Below are positions 8,710 to 29,695 of a DNA stretch of 33,360 nucleotides, piece after piece; within the stretch, counting starts at the first letter, position 1; every line of letters starts with the position of its first letter. The notes beneath the pieces are model-generated. The model was given only the letters and a program-made list of their open reading frames with translations. It had not been told where the DNA came from and did not search any database. The stretch spans positions 1 through 33,360 of IMG/VR virus record IMGVR_UViG_3300031787_000493. One strand, written 5' to 3'. Made by a program: the position numbers and the translations under genes. This DNA is from a virus.

Positions 8710-9141
8710 TCAATAGTATGAGTTTTTTAACCAAAAGGCTTTGGCAGCACACGGGCCACCAGCGCCATATTTGCGGCCTATGTAGGCCAATGCTGCAATC
8801 GTTTGGGCAACAGTTGATTTACTGCGCTTCATTCCAAGATTGCGATAAGTACCATCCAATAGTTGTCCGACACCCGAAGCGGTGCTGGTTGGATTGTCCT
8901 TGTCTGCCCAGGCGCTTTCTTTTCCCATTACGAATGAAAAGCACTTGAACTGTTCGGTTGTCAGTAGCTCACGGGCCACCTCTTTTGCGTTCACCTGCAT
9001 CAAATGCGGGCGATCTTTGTAAATTACCAATGCAGGTACGGCAGTTGGTGCCATTATTGCCTGAACTGATAGTGAAGTTCCCACGCTAACCACAATGATT
9101 AACGCAAGCCTTCGGATGAGTCTTTTATCTGTTGGTGTAAT
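8710..9141 (-). CDS. Secreted transglycosylase-like protein, probable ATT start
   Basis: Residues about 60-143 form a lysozyme-like transglycosylase domain: CFSFVMGKESAW with catalytic Glu75, SGVGQLL, and the ending AYIGRKYG, CAAKAFW. The first conventional start (GTG at 9093) has no ribosome-binding site and cuts a signal peptide in half. In the same frame AAGGAG (9149-9154) stands 7 bases before an ATT at 9141. Reading from it gives MTPTDKRLIRRLALIIVVSV, a basic N-terminus plus a hydrophobic core, with likely cleavage after SVQA. The start lies inside the end of the WhiB gene. It would act in the cell wall. It lies far from the holin/endolysin cassette. Confidence 0.75.
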   Translation of the reverse strand: MTPTDKRLIRRLALIIVVSVGTSLSVQAIMAPTAVPALVIYKDRPHLMQVNAKEVARELLTTEQFKCFSFVMGKESAWADKDNPTSTASGVGQLLDGTYRNLGMKRSKSTVAQTIAALAYIGRKYGAGGPCAAKAFWLKNSYY

Positions 9142-9551
9142 GAATCTGCTCCTTGTTCAGTTGCAACCAATTTACGCAATACACGACTGACATAACCAGG
9201 CGAAGTATTAAGTTGGGCTGCAATTTCGTTGGCAGAAACCCCTTTTTTATGCAATTTGGTAATCGTTAATGCAATTCCTTTGAACGCATAACTCTTACCT
9301 TTAGCAATTGCAACGGTATCTCTATCGGCTGGCGTTGAGCCACCCCAAATACCGTAGGGAATCTGTTTTTCTAGTGCGTACTCCAAACACTCCTTTTCGT
9401 GAATACAACTTGAGCAAATAGCTTTCAGTTGGTGCAGTCTTTCTGCCTCTTGTGTGCGGTTATCAGGAAAAAATAAATCTTTGTCCTCAATATCTGCACA
9501 CTGAGCGTTATCAAATCGGGGTAGATCAACAAAGAACTCAAATTGGTTCAA
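9099..9551 (-). CDS. WhiB-like iron-sulphur regulator with extra C-terminal HTH
   Basis: 150 residues. Cys18, Cys46, Cys49 and Cys55 give the four-cysteine WhiB cluster site, followed by the G(I/V)WGG turn at 67-71. Typical WhiB proteins end soon after a basic tail, but here about 60 further residues follow, with a helix-turn-helix (LHKKGVSANEIAAQLNTSPGYV, about 99-120). WhiB proteins work with the host principal sigma factor; the extra HTH may supply its own DNA specificity. It starts at TTG in a TTGA overlap with GGAG 7 bases upstream. It is the strongest sign of an actinobacterial host. Confidence 0.9.
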   Translation of the reverse strand: MNQFEFFVDLPRFDNAQCADIEDKDLFFPDNRTQEAERLHQLKAICSSCIHEKECLEYALEKQIPYGIWGGSTPADRDTVAIAKGKSYAFKGIALTITKLHKKGVSANEIAAQLNTSPGYVSRVLRKLVATEQGADSLHQQIKDSSEGLR

Positions 9552-9902: not shown

Positions 9903-10268
9903 TTATTCAACCACCTTTAGTGCTGGGTAAGTGCCTTGAGCCTCGCGCCCAATGCGTGCAAACTTAACTGCTCGAATCAAATCTTCAGCCAAAATCAACG
10001 CTTCTTGCTCGCTCATATTGCAAAGCAATGGCGCGTTCTCGCCTAGATTGTCGCGGGCATTATCAAGGTGTTCAAAGTAGTTTTCAGATTTAACTGAACG
10101 ATCTGCCGAATGGCGCAATAAGTCCAAATCATCTAACTCATACGCGCCCACAACATCCTGCACCAAATCCTTCACGGCATCTTGTTCCTCAAGATAAAGC
10201 GCAATATGTCCGTCTGAATGGTTATGAAGTGAAAATAGCGGGTCGCGTGGTTGCTTTTCAAAGTTCAT
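9903..10268 (-). CDS. Hypothetical protein, 121 residues
   Basis: Not recognised. It is acidic and mainly helical, with an N-terminal LFSLHNHSDGHIALYLEE, a central Asp/Leu-rich part (about 33-52) and a C-terminal helix (EQEALILAEDLIRAVKFARI). No metal site or membrane segment is visible. Its start overlaps the stop of the 30-residue membrane gene (ATGA), and the resolvase gene follows. Confidence 0.6.
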   Translation of the reverse strand: MNFEKQPRDPLFSLHNHSDGHIALYLEEQDAVKDLVQDVVGAYELDDLDLLRHSADRSVKSENYFEHLDNARDNLGENAPLLCNMSEQEALILAEDLIRAVKFARIGREAQGTYPALKVVE

Positions 10269-10420: not shown

Positions 10421-10954
10421 CTAGACTCGCTGAACCTCGATCTGAAAAGGTGGCGCGGTGTTAATGTCGTATTTGGCGGCAATTGCCAAAGCGTTCAGGA
10501 TTTCAGGTTCACCAATGTTCGGCACCTGCACCGCCAATGCGCCAAGCGCGTAGGCAGAGCCTGAGCCGATTGAGTAAAGGCCATCGGCGCTTTGGCTAAT
10601 GTCGAGTGAATCGCCAATTTCAAATACATTGCCGCCGAAGGCAATCAGGAACCCAAAACTTGCGCCATCTTTATCAAATTCATAGCCATTAGCTTTGAAC
10701 GCGGTAATGATGCTTGGAATCATCTTTTTGCCCATAAATTTAACTGGGTCGGTGCCATCGTAAAGCGGTGGTTTCCAGTTGTAAGCCAAAATATCCCCTG
10801 GCCGACAATCGCCACGAACTGCCAGCAAGTATTTGCCCAATTTGACGATCTTGGGGGTGCTAGGGCTGATGATGCGCCTATCCCCGTCTGTAATCTGACT
10901 GTCTGCCCCTAGAATGGCAAAATCAGGCCCCTGGTAGGCAATTACAGTAGTCAT
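10421..10954 (-). CDS. Proteasome beta / HslV-like Ntn-hydrolase
   Basis: 177 residues from the ATG at 10954, about HslV length. Met is followed by TTVIAYQG; removing Met exposes Thr1. Counting from it, GADS places Asp17 exactly, PKIVKLG supplies the Lys33 equivalent (Lys34, one-residue offset), RGD gives the Gly47 equivalent, SIGSGSAYA matches the 129-131 loop and AAKYDINT matches the Asp166 region. These are the active-site features of 20S beta and HslV subunits, so peptidase activity is likely. An upstream in-frame extension (to 11038) would bury the Thr and is rejected. No ATPase partner or alpha subunit is encoded here. The gene stands alone, divergent from the plus-strand island. It may form its own ring or work with host unfoldases. 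Confidence 0.85.
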   Translation of the reverse strand: MTTVIAYQGPDFAILGADSQITDGDRRIISPSTPKIVKLGKYLLAVRGDCRPGDILAYNWKPPLYDGTDPVKFMGKKMIPSIITAFKANGYEFDKDGASFGFLIAFGGNVFEIGDSLDISQSADGLYSIGSGSAYALGALAVQVPNIGEPEILNALAIAAKYDINTAPPFQIEVQRV

Positions 10955-10960
10955 TGGCCA

Positions 10961-10966
10961 AGTGTA
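10961..10966 (-). promoter_or_regulatory. TACACT -10 box, probable leaderless promoter
   Basis: TACACT on the minus strand ends 6 bases before the ATG of the Ntn-hydrolase gene, and no Shine-Dalgarno sequence is present. That spacing puts the transcription start at or next to the A of the ATG. Leaderless genes are common in actinobacteria. No good -35 box is seen. Confidence 0.45.
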
Positions 10967-11083
10967 GGGGTAAGGCGTGAAAACCCTAGCAATTCCCCAA
11001 TTTCTTCGGGTTTCCACGCCTTGAGCCGACCCTAACACGCCTAAATCCCGTTATCAAATCGTTATGTGTCTTGGGGGTCAATG

Positions 11084-13887: not shown

Positions 13888-14412
13888 TTAACTGTTTTTT
13901 ATGCCGTATAGATAGAATGATGAATTTGTTAAAAATAGACTTCCTGGAGCATCCCAAGTAATTGATGATATTCCCGAACTTCCTCGGTACAGCGAAGCAC
14001 CTGCATATACAGCGGCTAATGTAGCGGTGTTACCTTCTTGCACATTGAAAACACCAATTGGTCTTGCTGAGGTAAGAGTGTAATTTGGAACATATATCTC
14101 TACACTTGCAAATGTATTTGATGTTCCACCACTGCCATTAACATTTGTATGAAAATTTACACTACTGGTATTTGCTGCAATATGCGAAGTTCCAGCGGAA
14201 CCATTACTTCGCATAGTTACTCTTGAGTAATTAGTTCCAGTATCGGAATTAAAAGTAATGTTACAAGTATCTCCAACTGCGCTACCGCCATCGGTTCTTG
14301 CTGAATACTTAATTACTAAATCTGTGTATGTTGAAGGTATTGAACTAAAAGTAACGCTGGTTATATCTGATGCAAGGACATTGCTAGAGATAAGTGTGTA
14401 GGTACTAGGCAT
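13888..14412 (-). CDS. Beta-rich surface-type protein, paralogue 3
   Basis: 174 residues, rich in Ser, Thr and Gly with alternating beta patterns, consistent with a jelly-roll. It shares with the next two genes upstream an early VTFSSIPSTYTDL block, a FNSDTGTNYS block and the ending LYGIKNS. Such proteins are usually head or tail surface decorations or receptor-binding parts. The start overlaps the stop of paralogue 2 by 8 bases. Confidence 0.65.
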   Translation of the reverse strand: MPSTYTLISSNVLASDITSVTFSSIPSTYTDLVIKYSARTDGGSAVGDTCNITFNSDTGTNYSRVTMRSNGSAGTSHIAANTSSVNFHTNVNGSGGTSNTFASVEIYVPNYTLTSARPIGVFNVQEGNTATLAAVYAGASLYRGSSGISSITWDAPGSLFLTNSSFYLYGIKNS

Positions 14413-14929
14413 TTTTTATCCCATACAAAGTGGCGATTGTGCCTGTTAAATACTGAAATGTTGAACCTAAACTAAATGTAATTGAAGTAATAGCAGATGT
14501 GTTGCGCCATAAACCAACAATTCTTACAACATCGCCTGAACCGTTAAGATCGGCTGATGTTGTTGATAAATATGTTTTGTTTGTTGAACCCGCGTAAGAA
14601 AATATATCAACAGTAACAAGTCCAAAAATCCCTGAAGTGTTGTTATTTCTAGGAATAAAACCAGCAACATTGCTTGTTAGCGAAGTTCCAGCAGCACTAG
14701 ATGCGTTTGCTCCATCGCCCAAAAGTCGAGTGTATGAGTAATTAGTGGCGGTGTCAGAATTAAATCGTAAAAAAACAGTATCATTACCAGTTGATGCTCT
14801 GTCATCTCTACCAACTAACACAACTCGTAAATCAGTATATGTTGCAGCAATAGAGCTAAAAGTTATTGTTGCAGCGTTACTGCCCAAAGTAGTAGTTGCA
14901 ATTGGCTCGTATGTTGGACCCGCTGGCAT
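14405..14929 (-). CDS. Beta-rich surface-type protein, paralogue 2
   Basis: 174 residues, the same length as paralogue 3. Shared blocks are ITFSSIAATYTDLRV, LRFNSDTATNYSYTR and ATLYGIKNA. It also shares LWRNTSAITSITF with the LWQSTSAITSLTI of paralogue 1. GGGAG precedes the ATG and the TAA of paralogue 1 abuts it. The function is inferred from composition and position near fibre genes. Confidence 0.65.
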   Translation of the reverse strand: MPAGPTYEPIATTTLGSNAATITFSSIAATYTDLRVVLVGRDDRASTGNDTVFLRFNSDTATNYSYTRLLGDGANASSAAGTSLTSNVAGFIPRNNNTSGIFGLVTVDIFSYAGSTNKTYLSTTSADLNGSGDVVRIVGLWRNTSAITSITFSLGSTFQYLTGTIATLYGIKNA

Positions 14930-15505
14930 TTAGGCTCCCTTTATTCCGTATAGTGAAATGGTAGTTCCTGATGCAAACGCGGTAGAATCTGCTCTGATTG
15001 TCAAGGAAGTAATTGCAGATGTTGATTGCCACAATGCTGAATCTAAAGAAATTACCGAGCCAGTTCCATTCACATTGCCACCGCTAATCATTCTTAAAGT
15101 TTTATATTTAGAAGTTGATGTGTAATCAATAATATCAAGAATCATTACACCGTATGTAGTTGTGTTGCTAGAACCTGAACGAATTGCGGCGGCCCACGGC
15201 AAACCTTGAGGTTGCCCTGTATAACCATCTGCAGTAACTGTGGTGCCATCGCCTCTTAAACTGTGAATTGCATAAATTGAAGTAGCATCGTTATTTGGTC
15301 TGATATTTACTGGAATTGCATCATAACCGCCAGTAGATGTATCTCTTACAATGCTGCGAACTTGCAATGACTTAAAAGTTTGTGGGATGCTTGAAAATGT
15401 AATTGATGTGGTTCCACCTGAAGGTGTGCTTGTAGCAATAGACTCAAATGAGCCACTTACTGCAGGCACATATGACCCAATCAACCCAAGTTGAATACCA
15501 GCCAT
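14930..15505 (-). CDS. Beta-rich surface-type protein, paralogue 1
   Basis: 191 residues from the ATG at 15505, which overlaps the collagen-like gene stop (TGATG). It has about 17 extra N-terminal residues (AGIQLGLIGSYVPAVSG), then the shared SITFSSIPQTFKSLQV, a variable middle and the SLYGIKGA ending. The extra N-terminus may attach the protein to the tail or to a partner. Confidence 0.65.
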   Translation of the reverse strand: MAGIQLGLIGSYVPAVSGSFESIATSTPSGGTTSITFSSIPQTFKSLQVRSIVRDTSTGGYDAIPVNIRPNNDATSIYAIHSLRGDGTTVTADGYTGQPQGLPWAAAIRSGSSNTTTYGVMILDIIDYTSTSKYKTLRMISGGNVNGTGSVISLDSALWQSTSAITSLTIRADSTAFASGTTISLYGIKGA

Positions 15506-17643
15506 CAAGTAAGGCCATTTCCGCTAATAATCCAAGATGTAGATGTTATCTTCACGCAAGTTGCCATACCAAATGGTGCCAATGTGCGTGAACCAGTTGT
15601 TCCAGCCCCTGCTAAAAGCAAGGTATCCGTTGTAATTGCAATCGTAACAGTTGCACCAGTTGCTGCAATGAATGTGATCGCAGTACCGACTGGGAAAGCA
15701 ACAGATGAGTTTGCAGGGATGGTAACAGTGCGTGTTGCAGTTGTGTAAATATGCTCACCAGCATCGGCAGCAACGATTGTGTAAGAACCAGTTGTTGCCG
15801 CTGCGCTTTGCGGAATTCCCATATAACCAATGCCGCGTGCTGCAGTTGCAGTTGTTGCATCGGCAATTGTTGAGGTGTAACGCAATCCAGTTGCTTGAGT
15901 TGAATCTGCAACAATTATTTCGTTATCTGCACCCACCGCTAAGCGTGTTACGACTGTTGAGAAGGTAGCAAGATCGCCCTTTGTGGTTAAAGCTGAAGGA
16001 CCAGTAGCACCCGTTGCACCCGCAGGTCCAGTTGCACCAATAGGTCCAGTTGCACCTACAGGTCCAGTGGCACCTTCAGGTCCAGTAGCACCTACAGGTC
16101 CAGTTGCTCCAACATCGCCTTGAATACCTTGAGGACCTGTCGCGCCTATCGGTCCAGTCGCTCCAATAGAACCAGTAGCCCCAACAGGGCCAGTGGCACC
16201 AACAACGCCAGTAGGTCCAACATCTCCAGTTACTCCCTGCGGTCCAGTTGCACCAACAGGTCCAGTTGCACCGATTGGTCCAGTAACGCCAACATCTCCC
16301 TGGATGCCTTGAATTCCTTGCGGTCCAGTTGCACCTGTGGCACCTGCAGGTCCAGTTGCACCTACAACGCCTTGAATACCTTGAGGACCAGTAGCACCAG
16401 TTGCGCCCGCAGTTCCTGCAGGTCCAGTTGCACCTGTTGCACCATCTAGGCCAGCAACACCTTGCGGGCCAGTAGGTCCAGTTGCACCGATCACGCCAGT
16501 TGCACCTGTTGGTCCAGGAACAGTTGAAGCGGCACCTGATGCGCCAGTGGCACCTATCGGACCAGTTGGCCCTGTATCGCCCGTGGCTCCGATTGGGCCA
16601 GTGGCACCTGCGGGGCCTGTTGCTCCAGTTGCACCTGTAAGGCCAACTGCGATTGTAACGAGTGCGAGTAATTGAAAGTTTGAAAAGTTAGTTGTTCCAG
16701 TGCCACCTGATGAATCAATGACAACTGGCAGTTCTACATAACCAGTTTGCAATACTGGCGCACCTGTGACTAAGAACTTTTGAAAGTTATTGTTAACATC
16801 TCGGTCTTGAATAATAATAAAATCATTTGCTTTAAGTAATGCAAGCAAGAAATCAATATCATCGCCGTTATCGTCAATGTGATCTATGTTGATTCGAGTT
16901 GAGTTAATCTGTGTTGCATTACCCCAACGAATATCACCTGCACCTGGTCGGCCTGTTGTAGATGATGTATCTGCTGCATAATTAAAGATGGTTGCTGAAC
17001 CACCATTGGCACCTGCAGGCCCGCTTGCACCTGTTGCACCAGTTGGACCAGCAACGCCAGTGGCACCGATAGGGCCAGTTGCCCCTGTTGCACCGATTGA
17101 ACCCGTTGCACCAGTTGGCCCTGGCACTGTTGAATCAGCGCCTGTTGGCCCTGTTGCTCCAATCGGACCAGTTGGCCCTGTTACGCCAGCAATTCCTTGT
17201 GAACCTGTTGCACCAACTGGGCCAGTTGCACCAACATCACCTTGAATACCTTGTGGGCCAGTAATGCCAGTTGAACCTGTTGCGCCAACTACGCCTTGAA
17301 TTCCTTGTGGACCAGTTGCGCCAATTGGACCAGTTACACCGATCTCACCCTGGATTCCCTGAATACCTTGTGGACCTGTCGCACCGACTGGACCAGTAAC
17401 ACCAATTGAACCTGTTGCACCGATTGGACCTGTTGCGCCAGTTGCACCAACTACACCTTGCGGTCCAGTTGCACCTGTAGCACCTGTTGCACCTGTTGCG
17501 CCAATACCTGTTGCACCCGTAGCACCAGTTGCACCTGCAGGGCCAGTTGGACCTGTAGCACCACCTGGACCTTGTGGACCTTGTGCATTAGAGATAACAA
17601 CATCAATATCTTCAGTGTTAATTGTTACAACGCTTGTGGCCAT
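15505..17643 (-). CDS. Collagen-like fibre protein
   Basis: 712 residues. Residues about 22-214 and 335-550 are Gly-X-Y repeats dominated by GAT, GPT and GPQ, interrupted by a 120-residue globular beta-rich insert (about 215-334, including [20 protein letters not shown]). The C-terminal 160 residues (from [11 protein letters not shown]) form a globular head seen in several fibre proteins. Collagen repeats form rigid triple helices, so it is probably a trimeric tail or capsid fibre. The DNA is repetitive and prone to length change. Long opposite-strand frames here are artefacts of the repeat. Confidence 0.85.
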
Positions 17644-18022: not shown

Positions 18023-18247
18023 TTACTTTGCAGCCTGATCAAACTTACGGCCAAAATCTTCTTCAGTTTTATCTGCCCATTTTACGATTGGAGCGGTAAG
18101 CCCACCAATAAGAATAGCATATTCAGGCGCAATATCTGTGAGCAATGCAATACCCATTGCTGCTGCTGATGCTAATACTGCTCGCAAATAAGACTTGAGG
18201 GCGGCCTTAAACTCTTTGCTCTGTAGTTTCTTCTTTAACTTATTCAT
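18023..18247 (-). CDS. Putative holin
   Basis: 74 residues: a basic N-terminus (MNKLKKKLQSKEFKAALKS), one or two hydrophobic segments (about 23-38 and 43-55: AVLASAAAMGIALL, YAILIGGLTAPIV) and an acidic-basic C-terminus. Small size, membrane pattern and a 4-base overlap with the endolysin gene support holin. It would release the endolysin at the end of infection. Confidence 0.75.
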   Translation of the reverse strand: MNKLKKKLQSKEFKAALKSYLRAVLASAAAMGIALLTDIAPEYAILIGGLTAPIVKWADKTEEDFGRKFDQAAK

Positions 18248-18768
18248 TTTTTGCCTTTCTTGAACAGTAATGTCAGCAAGGACTTATTGCGCAATTTATC
18301 GTTGCTTGTCTTGGCTGGCTTCTTTTTTGGTTTTTGAACTTTAGAAATTGCTACTTTTGCAACCGTTTTAGGGGTTTTCTTAGGCTTGTCTAACCAAGCA
18401 AACCAAGCCGAATCATCCTTGGCATATTCATCTTTAATGGAAATGTGTAGATGCTTTTCGTGTGAATTTGAACCTGAATACTTTTTTTCGCCTTGCCCAA
18501 AAAGCCAAATGCGGTGGTTGAAAATTAAATAGGAAACGCGCTTATCCTCTTTTAGCTTTTCAAATATATCAGCGCAATCAATACCATTCTTAGGGTCGTG
18601 GGTTAGGTCCACGGCTAGGCCAGTATTGTGATCTGACTTTGGATTTTGCTTCAGATGGGCTGCAGATGGCAGTAAGCCGTCAGATGCCTTTTTGCGCAAT
18701 GGCTTTAGGGCGGTGGCTTGGCGTAGCACTGCCATTGCCGCTGGTGTTGCCTTCTTTGCTAACTTCAC
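18244..18768 (-). CDS. Endolysin, M15-type peptidase
   Basis: 174 residues. SDHNTGLAVDLTHDP places zinc ligands His47 and Asp54, and EKHLHIS gives His108 as third ligand, the pattern of LAS/M15 D,L-peptidases that cut peptidoglycan cross-bridges. The tail (about 127-174) is Lys-rich (KKTPKTVAKVAISK, KPKKKPAK), probably for wall or membrane binding. GTG start in a GTGA overlap with the upstream membrane gene. Confidence 0.85.
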   Translation of the reverse strand: MKLAKKATPAAMAVLRQATALKPLRKKASDGLLPSAAHLKQNPKSDHNTGLAVDLTHDPKNGIDCADIFEKLKEDKRVSYLIFNHRIWLFGQGEKKYSGSNSHEKHLHISIKDEYAKDDSAWFAWLDKPKKTPKTVAKVAISKVQKPKKKPAKTSNDKLRNKSLLTLLFKKGKK

Positions 18769-28741: not shown

Positions 28742-29695
28742 TTATTTTGTGTTGTTGATAATTGCTTTAGCAAGGCGCAGGGAAATTGAACGGCCTGCAA
28801 CCGCTGGCATATCTGTTGGCTCTAACTCAACTTCAGGTTCTTCAACCTCAACAGTTGGGGTAAGTGTGTTAAGCCCTAGCAAAACCTCAAGCATTGTTTT
28901 GCCTTCTTCAAGGCTATCGTAGGAATCAGATACCTTTTCAAGAATTGAATTGATAACAAGAGTTGATTCACCATCTAGGGCGCGACCTTCTTTGATTGCT
29001 TCCATTGCGTTTTTGATTGCCTCTCTTGCTTCAACTGAAGTTGTAGGGTAAGCGGGATATGTGACAACCGATACATCACCATCAGCAAGGCTAACTTCAG
29101 TAAGTGTGCGAACCGAACGGTCCTCATTCCACTTTTGACGGATAACACGGAAAGCAAAACTCATTTGGTCAACATCTCCGCGCTCAACTAACTTGTAAAG
29201 GTCGCGACCTTCGCTGGTGTCTGCAATCTCTGCATCCATAAACAAACCACGATCATCTTCGCTTAGCGTAAGTGTGCCGTTCTTTGTTCGAGCTAGTGGC
29301 AAACCTTCGTGGTTAATAAGCAAACGCACATCAGGTGTTTCGCTTAATGTCTTGCGAAACGCGCCAGGGGCGATAGTCTCTTTGAATGGTAGTGGAACGC
29401 TTGCATCGTTAAACACTGCTGCATAACCGCGCAAACGCATTGTTCCATCTTCGGCTTGGCGTGCTTCAACATCTTGAACCGTAAATGTACGGCGTTCAAT
29501 TTCTTTCACTTTGCTCCTTGAGTTAACTTCCCCGCCTGGTTCCATATCTTCGGAAATTGAAATTGCAACCATCTGATCTATTGCTTCTTGCTTTGTATCG
29601 TGGCAAACCAATGTTGTATAAGAACCATCTGATTCTTGCTTAACAGTTGCCCATCCTGAACAATCGGCTTGCTTATCTGAAACGAAATATGGCAT
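28742..29695 (-). CDS. HK97-type prohead protease
   Basis: 317 residues. Protease domain from about 65: RGYAAVFND, LLINHEGLPLART with His129, MSFAFRV with Ser179, and VSLADGDVSVVTYPAYP. The N-terminal 50 residues (SGWATVKQESDG, VCHDTKQEAIDQMVA) are an extra module also present in many actinophage proteases. The C-terminal 80 residues are acidic and helical. It cuts the capsid delta domain during maturation. Confidence 0.88.
   Translation of the reverse strand: MPYFVSDKQADCSGWATVKQESDGSYTTLVCHDTKQEAIDQMVAISISEDMEPGGEVNSRSKVKEIERRTFTVQDVEARQAEDGTMRLRGYAAVFNDASVPLPFKETIAPGAFRKTLSETPDVRLLINHEGLPLARTKNGTLTLSEDDRGLFMDAEIADTSEGRDLYKLVERGDVDQMSFAFRVIRQKWNEDRSVRTLTEVSLADGDVSVVTYPAYPTTSVEAREAIKNAMEAIKEGRALDGESTLVINSILEKVSDSYDSLEEGKTMLEVLLGLNTLTPTVEVEEPEVELEPTDMPAVAGRSISLRLAKAIINNTK

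Follow-up and report, generated by a model that had tools for sequence, protein, structure and literature searches.

The window, the whole 33,360-nucleotide viral record that was analysed, carries on its minus strand, at 10421..10954, a gene for a proteasome-like Ntn hydrolase of 177 amino acids plus stop. The bounds of the open reading frame are exact (177 codons and the stop), and the translation, MTTVIAYQGPDFAILGADSQITDGDRRIISPSTPKIVKLGKYLLAVRGD..., begins MTTVIAY. The protein matches the Pfam Proteasome family PF00227 with 25.3 bits (E = 1.4e-5; gathering cut-off 22.4), as do 19/19 members of the family alignment. It also matches the PHROG family phrog_1040, 'peptidase HslV family', with E = 5e-23; the match to the family HMM is full length, covering residues 1–175. 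No other match to the proteasome family is found in the whole record. A proteasome-type Ntn hydrolase, real and conserved, is confirmed at the place where the initial annotation had put a proteasome-type protease, and its sequence suggests that it is probably active as an enzyme.

The active site, which the initial annotation had called intact, has every named residue in place. In window numbering, the nucleophile Thr1 is T2, which would be free at the N-terminus once the initiator Met is cleaved off. Asp17 is D18, the Lys33 equivalent is K35 (Lys34 in the mature protein), Gly47 is G48, the GSG loop is formed by G130-S131-G132, and the Asp of the Asp166 region is D163 (162 mature). Thr1, Asp17, Lys33, Gly47, GSG and the Asp166-type Asp are each identical in 76/76 distinct full-length close relatives fetched. 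Among relatives, dN/dS of the gene is 0.09–0.26 where computable, indicating purifying selection; together with the catalytic identity, this is conservation far beyond chance. R51 and a W60-x-P-P element are also conserved.

An AlphaFold2 (AF2) model of the window protein, built with a 36-sequence alignment, has the Ntn β-sandwich fold (pLDDT 94, pTM 0.89). It consists of strands S1–S6 and helices H1 (50–59, short), H2 (70–88), H3 (133–141) and H4 (149–162), and closes with a strand at 171–176. In VIA-align, the top rows are tied: BPH 5ovt (Z 19.4, rmsd 2.7, 169 residues aligned), HslV 4hnz (Z 19.3, rmsd 3.0, 167 aligned) and yeast 20S β5 (Z about 18.7). In all three, residue 2 of the model falls on residue 1 of the known structure. 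The fold, and the superposition of Thr1 on the family, are thus as the initial annotation had expected. Foldseek ranks BPH at the top (E 3.6e-11); among viral models, it finds an 'HslV' protein of an uncultured Caudovirales phage (TM 0.90). As H1 is short in the model and the loop between H3 and H4 is variable, ring contacts could differ.

The start codon is the ATG at 10952..10954 (minus), with the Thr1 codon next to it. Of 83 distinct upstream sequences, 11 have an in-frame stop two to four codons 5′ of the ATG, which leaves no room for a propeptide in these. The stops, present in several relatives, also rule out an N-terminal propeptide that would begin at the GTG further upstream (11038). 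Six nucleotides before the ATG, comparison for TANNNT reveals a −10 promoter box, TACACT (10961..10966, minus). TANNNT ending 5–9 nt before the ATG occurs in 79/85 distinct upstream regions, which are related and so not independent. For 12 control genes from these phages, the figure at the same spacing is 0–2%, which argues against a compositional cause. A Shine-Dalgarno-like motif is present upstream of the proteasome-like gene in only 7%. A −10 box at 5–9 nt places the transcription start at or beside the ATG; the mRNA would therefore probably be leaderless and encode no propeptide. Leaderless mRNAs are common in Actinobacteria. A two-hexamer promoter scan at the gene start gave no promoter, the −10 box emerging by comparison only, and no −35 box is recognisable for the gene. 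Just 5′ of the promoter is a stable inverted repeat (10972..11022, minus; RNA fold −32.3 kcal/mol, z −2.7), which may be the terminator of the preceding unit, or an operator.

When the two ends of the window are joined, they align over 521 nt with a single relative (L107); the window thus forms a closed sequence and the genome is complete. In nearly all of the window-clade loci listed, the gene order is glycosyltransferase, DUF6378 gene, proteasome-like gene, g9903, (RusA), WhiB, lysozyme-like, g8384, Cas4/RecB-type exonuclease and prim-pol; the proteasome-like gene heads the RusA–WhiB–exonuclease–primase (replication) block. Among close relatives of the exonuclease with sufficient upstream sequence, 39/39 have the proteasome-like gene. 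Downstream of it, g9903 (9903..10268, minus; 121 aa, function not assigned) is the usual neighbour but was not detected in loci L124–L132; it is therefore not an obligate partner, and a functional link with it is weak. The WhiB-family regulator (9099..9551, minus) combines a WhiB domain with a C-terminal helix-turn-helix and marks the host of the window phage as actinobacterial, bearing out the earlier reading as an actinophage. A separate gene (28742..29695, minus) encodes an HK97-type head maturation protease (phrog_80, E = 1.9e-62), so this phage does not depend on the proteasome-like gene for head maturation. The complete genome encodes no AAA+ unfoldase and no alpha subunit, as had been claimed; the only credible Walker-A is in the prim-pol/helicase. 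In a sister phage clade, whose exonuclease is 62–66% identical, the proteasome-like gene is absent in 21/21 loci, also by profile. As this clade keeps the replication block, the gene is not essential to that lifestyle; in loci L277–L303, the pattern is that of a gene gained or lost as a unit. PADLOC defence families gave no match, and no close DNA match to known phages was found over window bases 1–25000.

How widely the protein is spread among phages, left open by the initial annotation, can now be answered: widely, with 64 relatives in one scan of IMG/VR and at least 533 in the other. The actinophage branch is very common in lake viruses. A scan of GTDB genomes gave 15 distant relatives, all at ≤34% identity and none from Actinobacteria. 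Homologues 35–37% identical to the window protein are present in both cultured 'Ca. Planktophila' phages, LanE43-AprE7 (E7) and F5 (OX376640 and OX376641), which were cultured on 'Ca. Planktophila' LanE-43 (PMC10202952). The GenBank entries OX376640.1 and OX376641.1 are unannotated and filed under 'Caudovirales sp. ct2KA10' as organism, so that the cultured host is not apparent from them. The window also encodes a lysin-like protein (18244..18768, minus; M15-like metal-ligand motif by eye) that is 70% identical to an E7 protein, unlike most other window proteins tested against E7, which have nothing detectable in common with it. The shared lysin-like protein points to a common host group and to exchange of genes. 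At 13888–15508, behind a collagen-like protein, are three tandem paralogues with 26–35% mutual identity. They match a triplet in E7 (35–40% identity) and are probably a host-recognition island. The host of the window phage is likely to belong to 'Ca. Nanopelagicales', abundant freshwater actinobacteria. A literature search on Nanopelagicales or Planktophila plus proteasome found nothing usable.

We consider it somewhat more likely than not that the protein is a catalytically competent, self-assembling threonine peptidase that is made early and has no dedicated unfoldase. Met-Thr N-termini are normally trimmed by methionine aminopeptidase, and the host enzyme would remove Met1 and expose Thr1. 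The subunits would then assemble into a ring or double ring, BPH- or HslV-like. From the gene position and the promoter, the peptidase would be made early, as the first gene of the replication block. Its substrates may be unfolded proteins or particular proteins of host or phage, and it may act by itself or together with a housekeeping chaperone or AAA+ protein of the host. It probably serves in taking over the host or countering its defences, not in maturing virions.

The case for virion maturation, in which the enzyme would process head or internal virion proteins and replace the usual head maturation protease, comes from the sister group of E7-like proteins (IMG/VR loci L157–L236; OX376640 7500–8036). 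This group has 144 IMG/VR relatives, of which 80 were fetched, and gene position was testable in 72 loci. In 71 of these 72, the homologue is directly downstream of the portal gene. The order is TerL, portal, homologue and, further on, the major head protein. The slot just after the portal is where tailed phages usually carry their head maturation protease, and head maturation protease families gave no match to the 18 E7 ORFs tested, a subset of the ORFs of this phage. The E7-like protein is predicted by AF2 to have the same fold as the window protein (pLDDT 90). Thr1, Asp17, Lys33 and Gly47 are kept in 53/53 distinct proteins of the group; the Asp166-type residue varies (D, N, S or T). Portal adjacency raises a virion-maturation role for this group but does not show it, as position alone is not function. 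It does not carry over to the window phage, which has a normal HK97-type protease and whose proteasome-like gene lies in the replication block and has a promoter to itself. We regard maturation as an unlikely explanation. The suggestion in the initial annotation that virion proteins could be processed is thus improbable for the window phage and a live possibility in the portal-adjacent group. That actinophages of the most abundant freshwater bacteria have domesticated a proteasome-like peptidase as standard equipment for infection, with two uses, an early leaderless host-takeover protease and, in Planktophila phages, a portal-linked replacement of the head protease, is a speculative reading of similarly low probability; if true, it would make a proteasome-type enzyme part of virion assembly. 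The abundance of the lineage and its one genomic position per phage group give clean hypotheses for phage proteasome-like proteins. Since two phages with a homologue already grow in the laboratory on a 'Ca. Planktophila' strain in culture, direct tests of when the protein is made, whether virions contain it and what it cleaves are feasible.

Slightly ahead of maturation, though still doubtful, we place an Ntn enzyme with one specific, non-degradative task, whether as monomeric ligase, amidase or single-site protease. It would resemble connectase, a member of the same superfamily, which is a monomeric ligase with a proteasome-like fold and an intact Thr1 (PMC8665760). A special site could be indicated by the shortened H1 together with the conserved R51 and W60-x-P-P. 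The window protein, however, has both H1 and H2, unlike connectase, and no S3/S4 insertion over the site; its best structural matches are the ring-forming BPH and HslV, although a shared fold is not proof of assembly. Far less probable is a hijacker or poison of the host 20S proteasome, which would co-assemble or compete with host beta subunits or work under host Mpa/ARC. WhiB marks the phage as an actinophage, and a 20S proteasome is found in many Actinobacteria (PMC8665760), but identity to beta subunits in the structural alignments is <20%, the propeptide that bacterial beta assembly uses is missing, and the AF2 model has no C-terminal extension. A catalytically dead or decaying remnant comes last and is given almost no weight: nothing was found in its favour, and it is ruled out at the sequence level by the 76/76 identity at catalytic positions and the dN/dS of 0.09–0.26. 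The self-assembling, early threonine peptidase is the reading that we prefer.

Maximum-likelihood trees recover a monophyletic window clade (100/98) with the E7-like group as its sister (92/87). These two, the DSL-LC01-like proteins and the Arthrobacter/Microbacterium phage proteins form an actinophage lineage that is not strongly supported (87/82); in the Arthrobacter/Microbacterium phage group, two long branches meet. The lineage adjoins AAH-like proteins, with HslV and BPH on the other side (98/88). Profile comparison with hhalign agrees with this placement, giving E = 3.8e-24 for AAH-like, 7.8e-17 for BPH and 2.3e-8 for an HslV profile of two sequences only. The AAH-like set was inferred from taxonomy (a rhizobial, Streptomyces and phage mix) and not from the alignments of Fuchs et al.; members of its profile are from Rhizobium, Sinorhizobium, Streptomyces, Paraburkholderia and Myxococcota. 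The window protein would thus belong, without strong support, to an actinophage-specific lineage related to AAH-like proteins.

Membership of HslV, the 20S beta subunits and PPH was rejected, and the features compared also speak against Anbu and BPH. For HslV, the NCBIfam equivalog scores are 24.5 against a cut-off of 137 bits and 22.4 against 157.75 bits, and the partner HslU is not encoded in the complete genome. A 20S beta subunit is rejected by the missing propeptide, the lack of a co-encoded alpha subunit and the tree placement. The HslV-type or 20S beta-type assignment of the initial annotation is therefore not supported; the nearest proteins are AAH-like and actinophage proteins. Anbu has a C-terminal coiled-coil helix, H5, which is absent from the window protein, the model ending with the strand at 171–176. 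PPH (Proteasome homologue of Phages and their Hosts) is likewise a phage-encoded proteasome homologue; it has about 140 aa and no H2 (PMC8665760), as compared to 177 aa and H2 at 70–88 here. BPH (Thiobacillus denitrificans, 5ovs/5ovt) shares first place with HslV among the structural matches (Z 19.4), but its sequences group with HslV, apart from the window clade (98/88), and its acidic pore loop is longer. BPH is a ring peptidase without a known unfoldase (PMC8665760); judged from the genes, the window protein also has no phage-encoded unfoldase.

AAH, the alphaproteobacterial and actinobacterial proteasome homologue, was described together with PPH, both phage-borne, by Fuchs, Alva and Lupas 2021 (PMC8665760), who found no co-occurring AAA+ partners or functional context and did not report an Actinobacteria-specific phage with AAH. 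The AAH-like profile is the nearest of those compared, yet the window proteins, with other actinophage proteins, form a separate sister clade (87/82). Both have about 180 aa, no propeptide and, in most members, a short H1 of the form R-x-G-x-x-L followed by a PP motif; some AAH-like copies are in phages. AAH-like proteins mostly have Thr1-Cys2 and Ser at position 47, whereas the window protein has Thr1-Thr2 and keeps Gly47. A Sinorhizobium fredii plasmid carries one AAH-like homologue (L141, 3001–3546), with nifQ on one side and iron-sulfur cluster assembly genes/nifS on the other. Besides phrog_1040, there are annotated phage proteases, namely those of Actinomycetia phage DSL-LC01 (34% identical to the window protein), Arthrobacter phages Hum25 and Pitbull, and Microbacterium phage Pumpernickel. 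They differ in phage type and gene context, and the leaderless-type promoter belongs to the window clade. The E7 and F5 homologues differ from the window protein in the location of the gene right after the portal and in a shorter H3–H4 loop. That phages carry proteasome-like proteins is already known from phrog_1040, Fuchs et al. and GenBank annotations; what this analysis adds is an actinophage lineage and how abundant it is, a promoter of the leaderless type, and a sister group located next to the portal gene.
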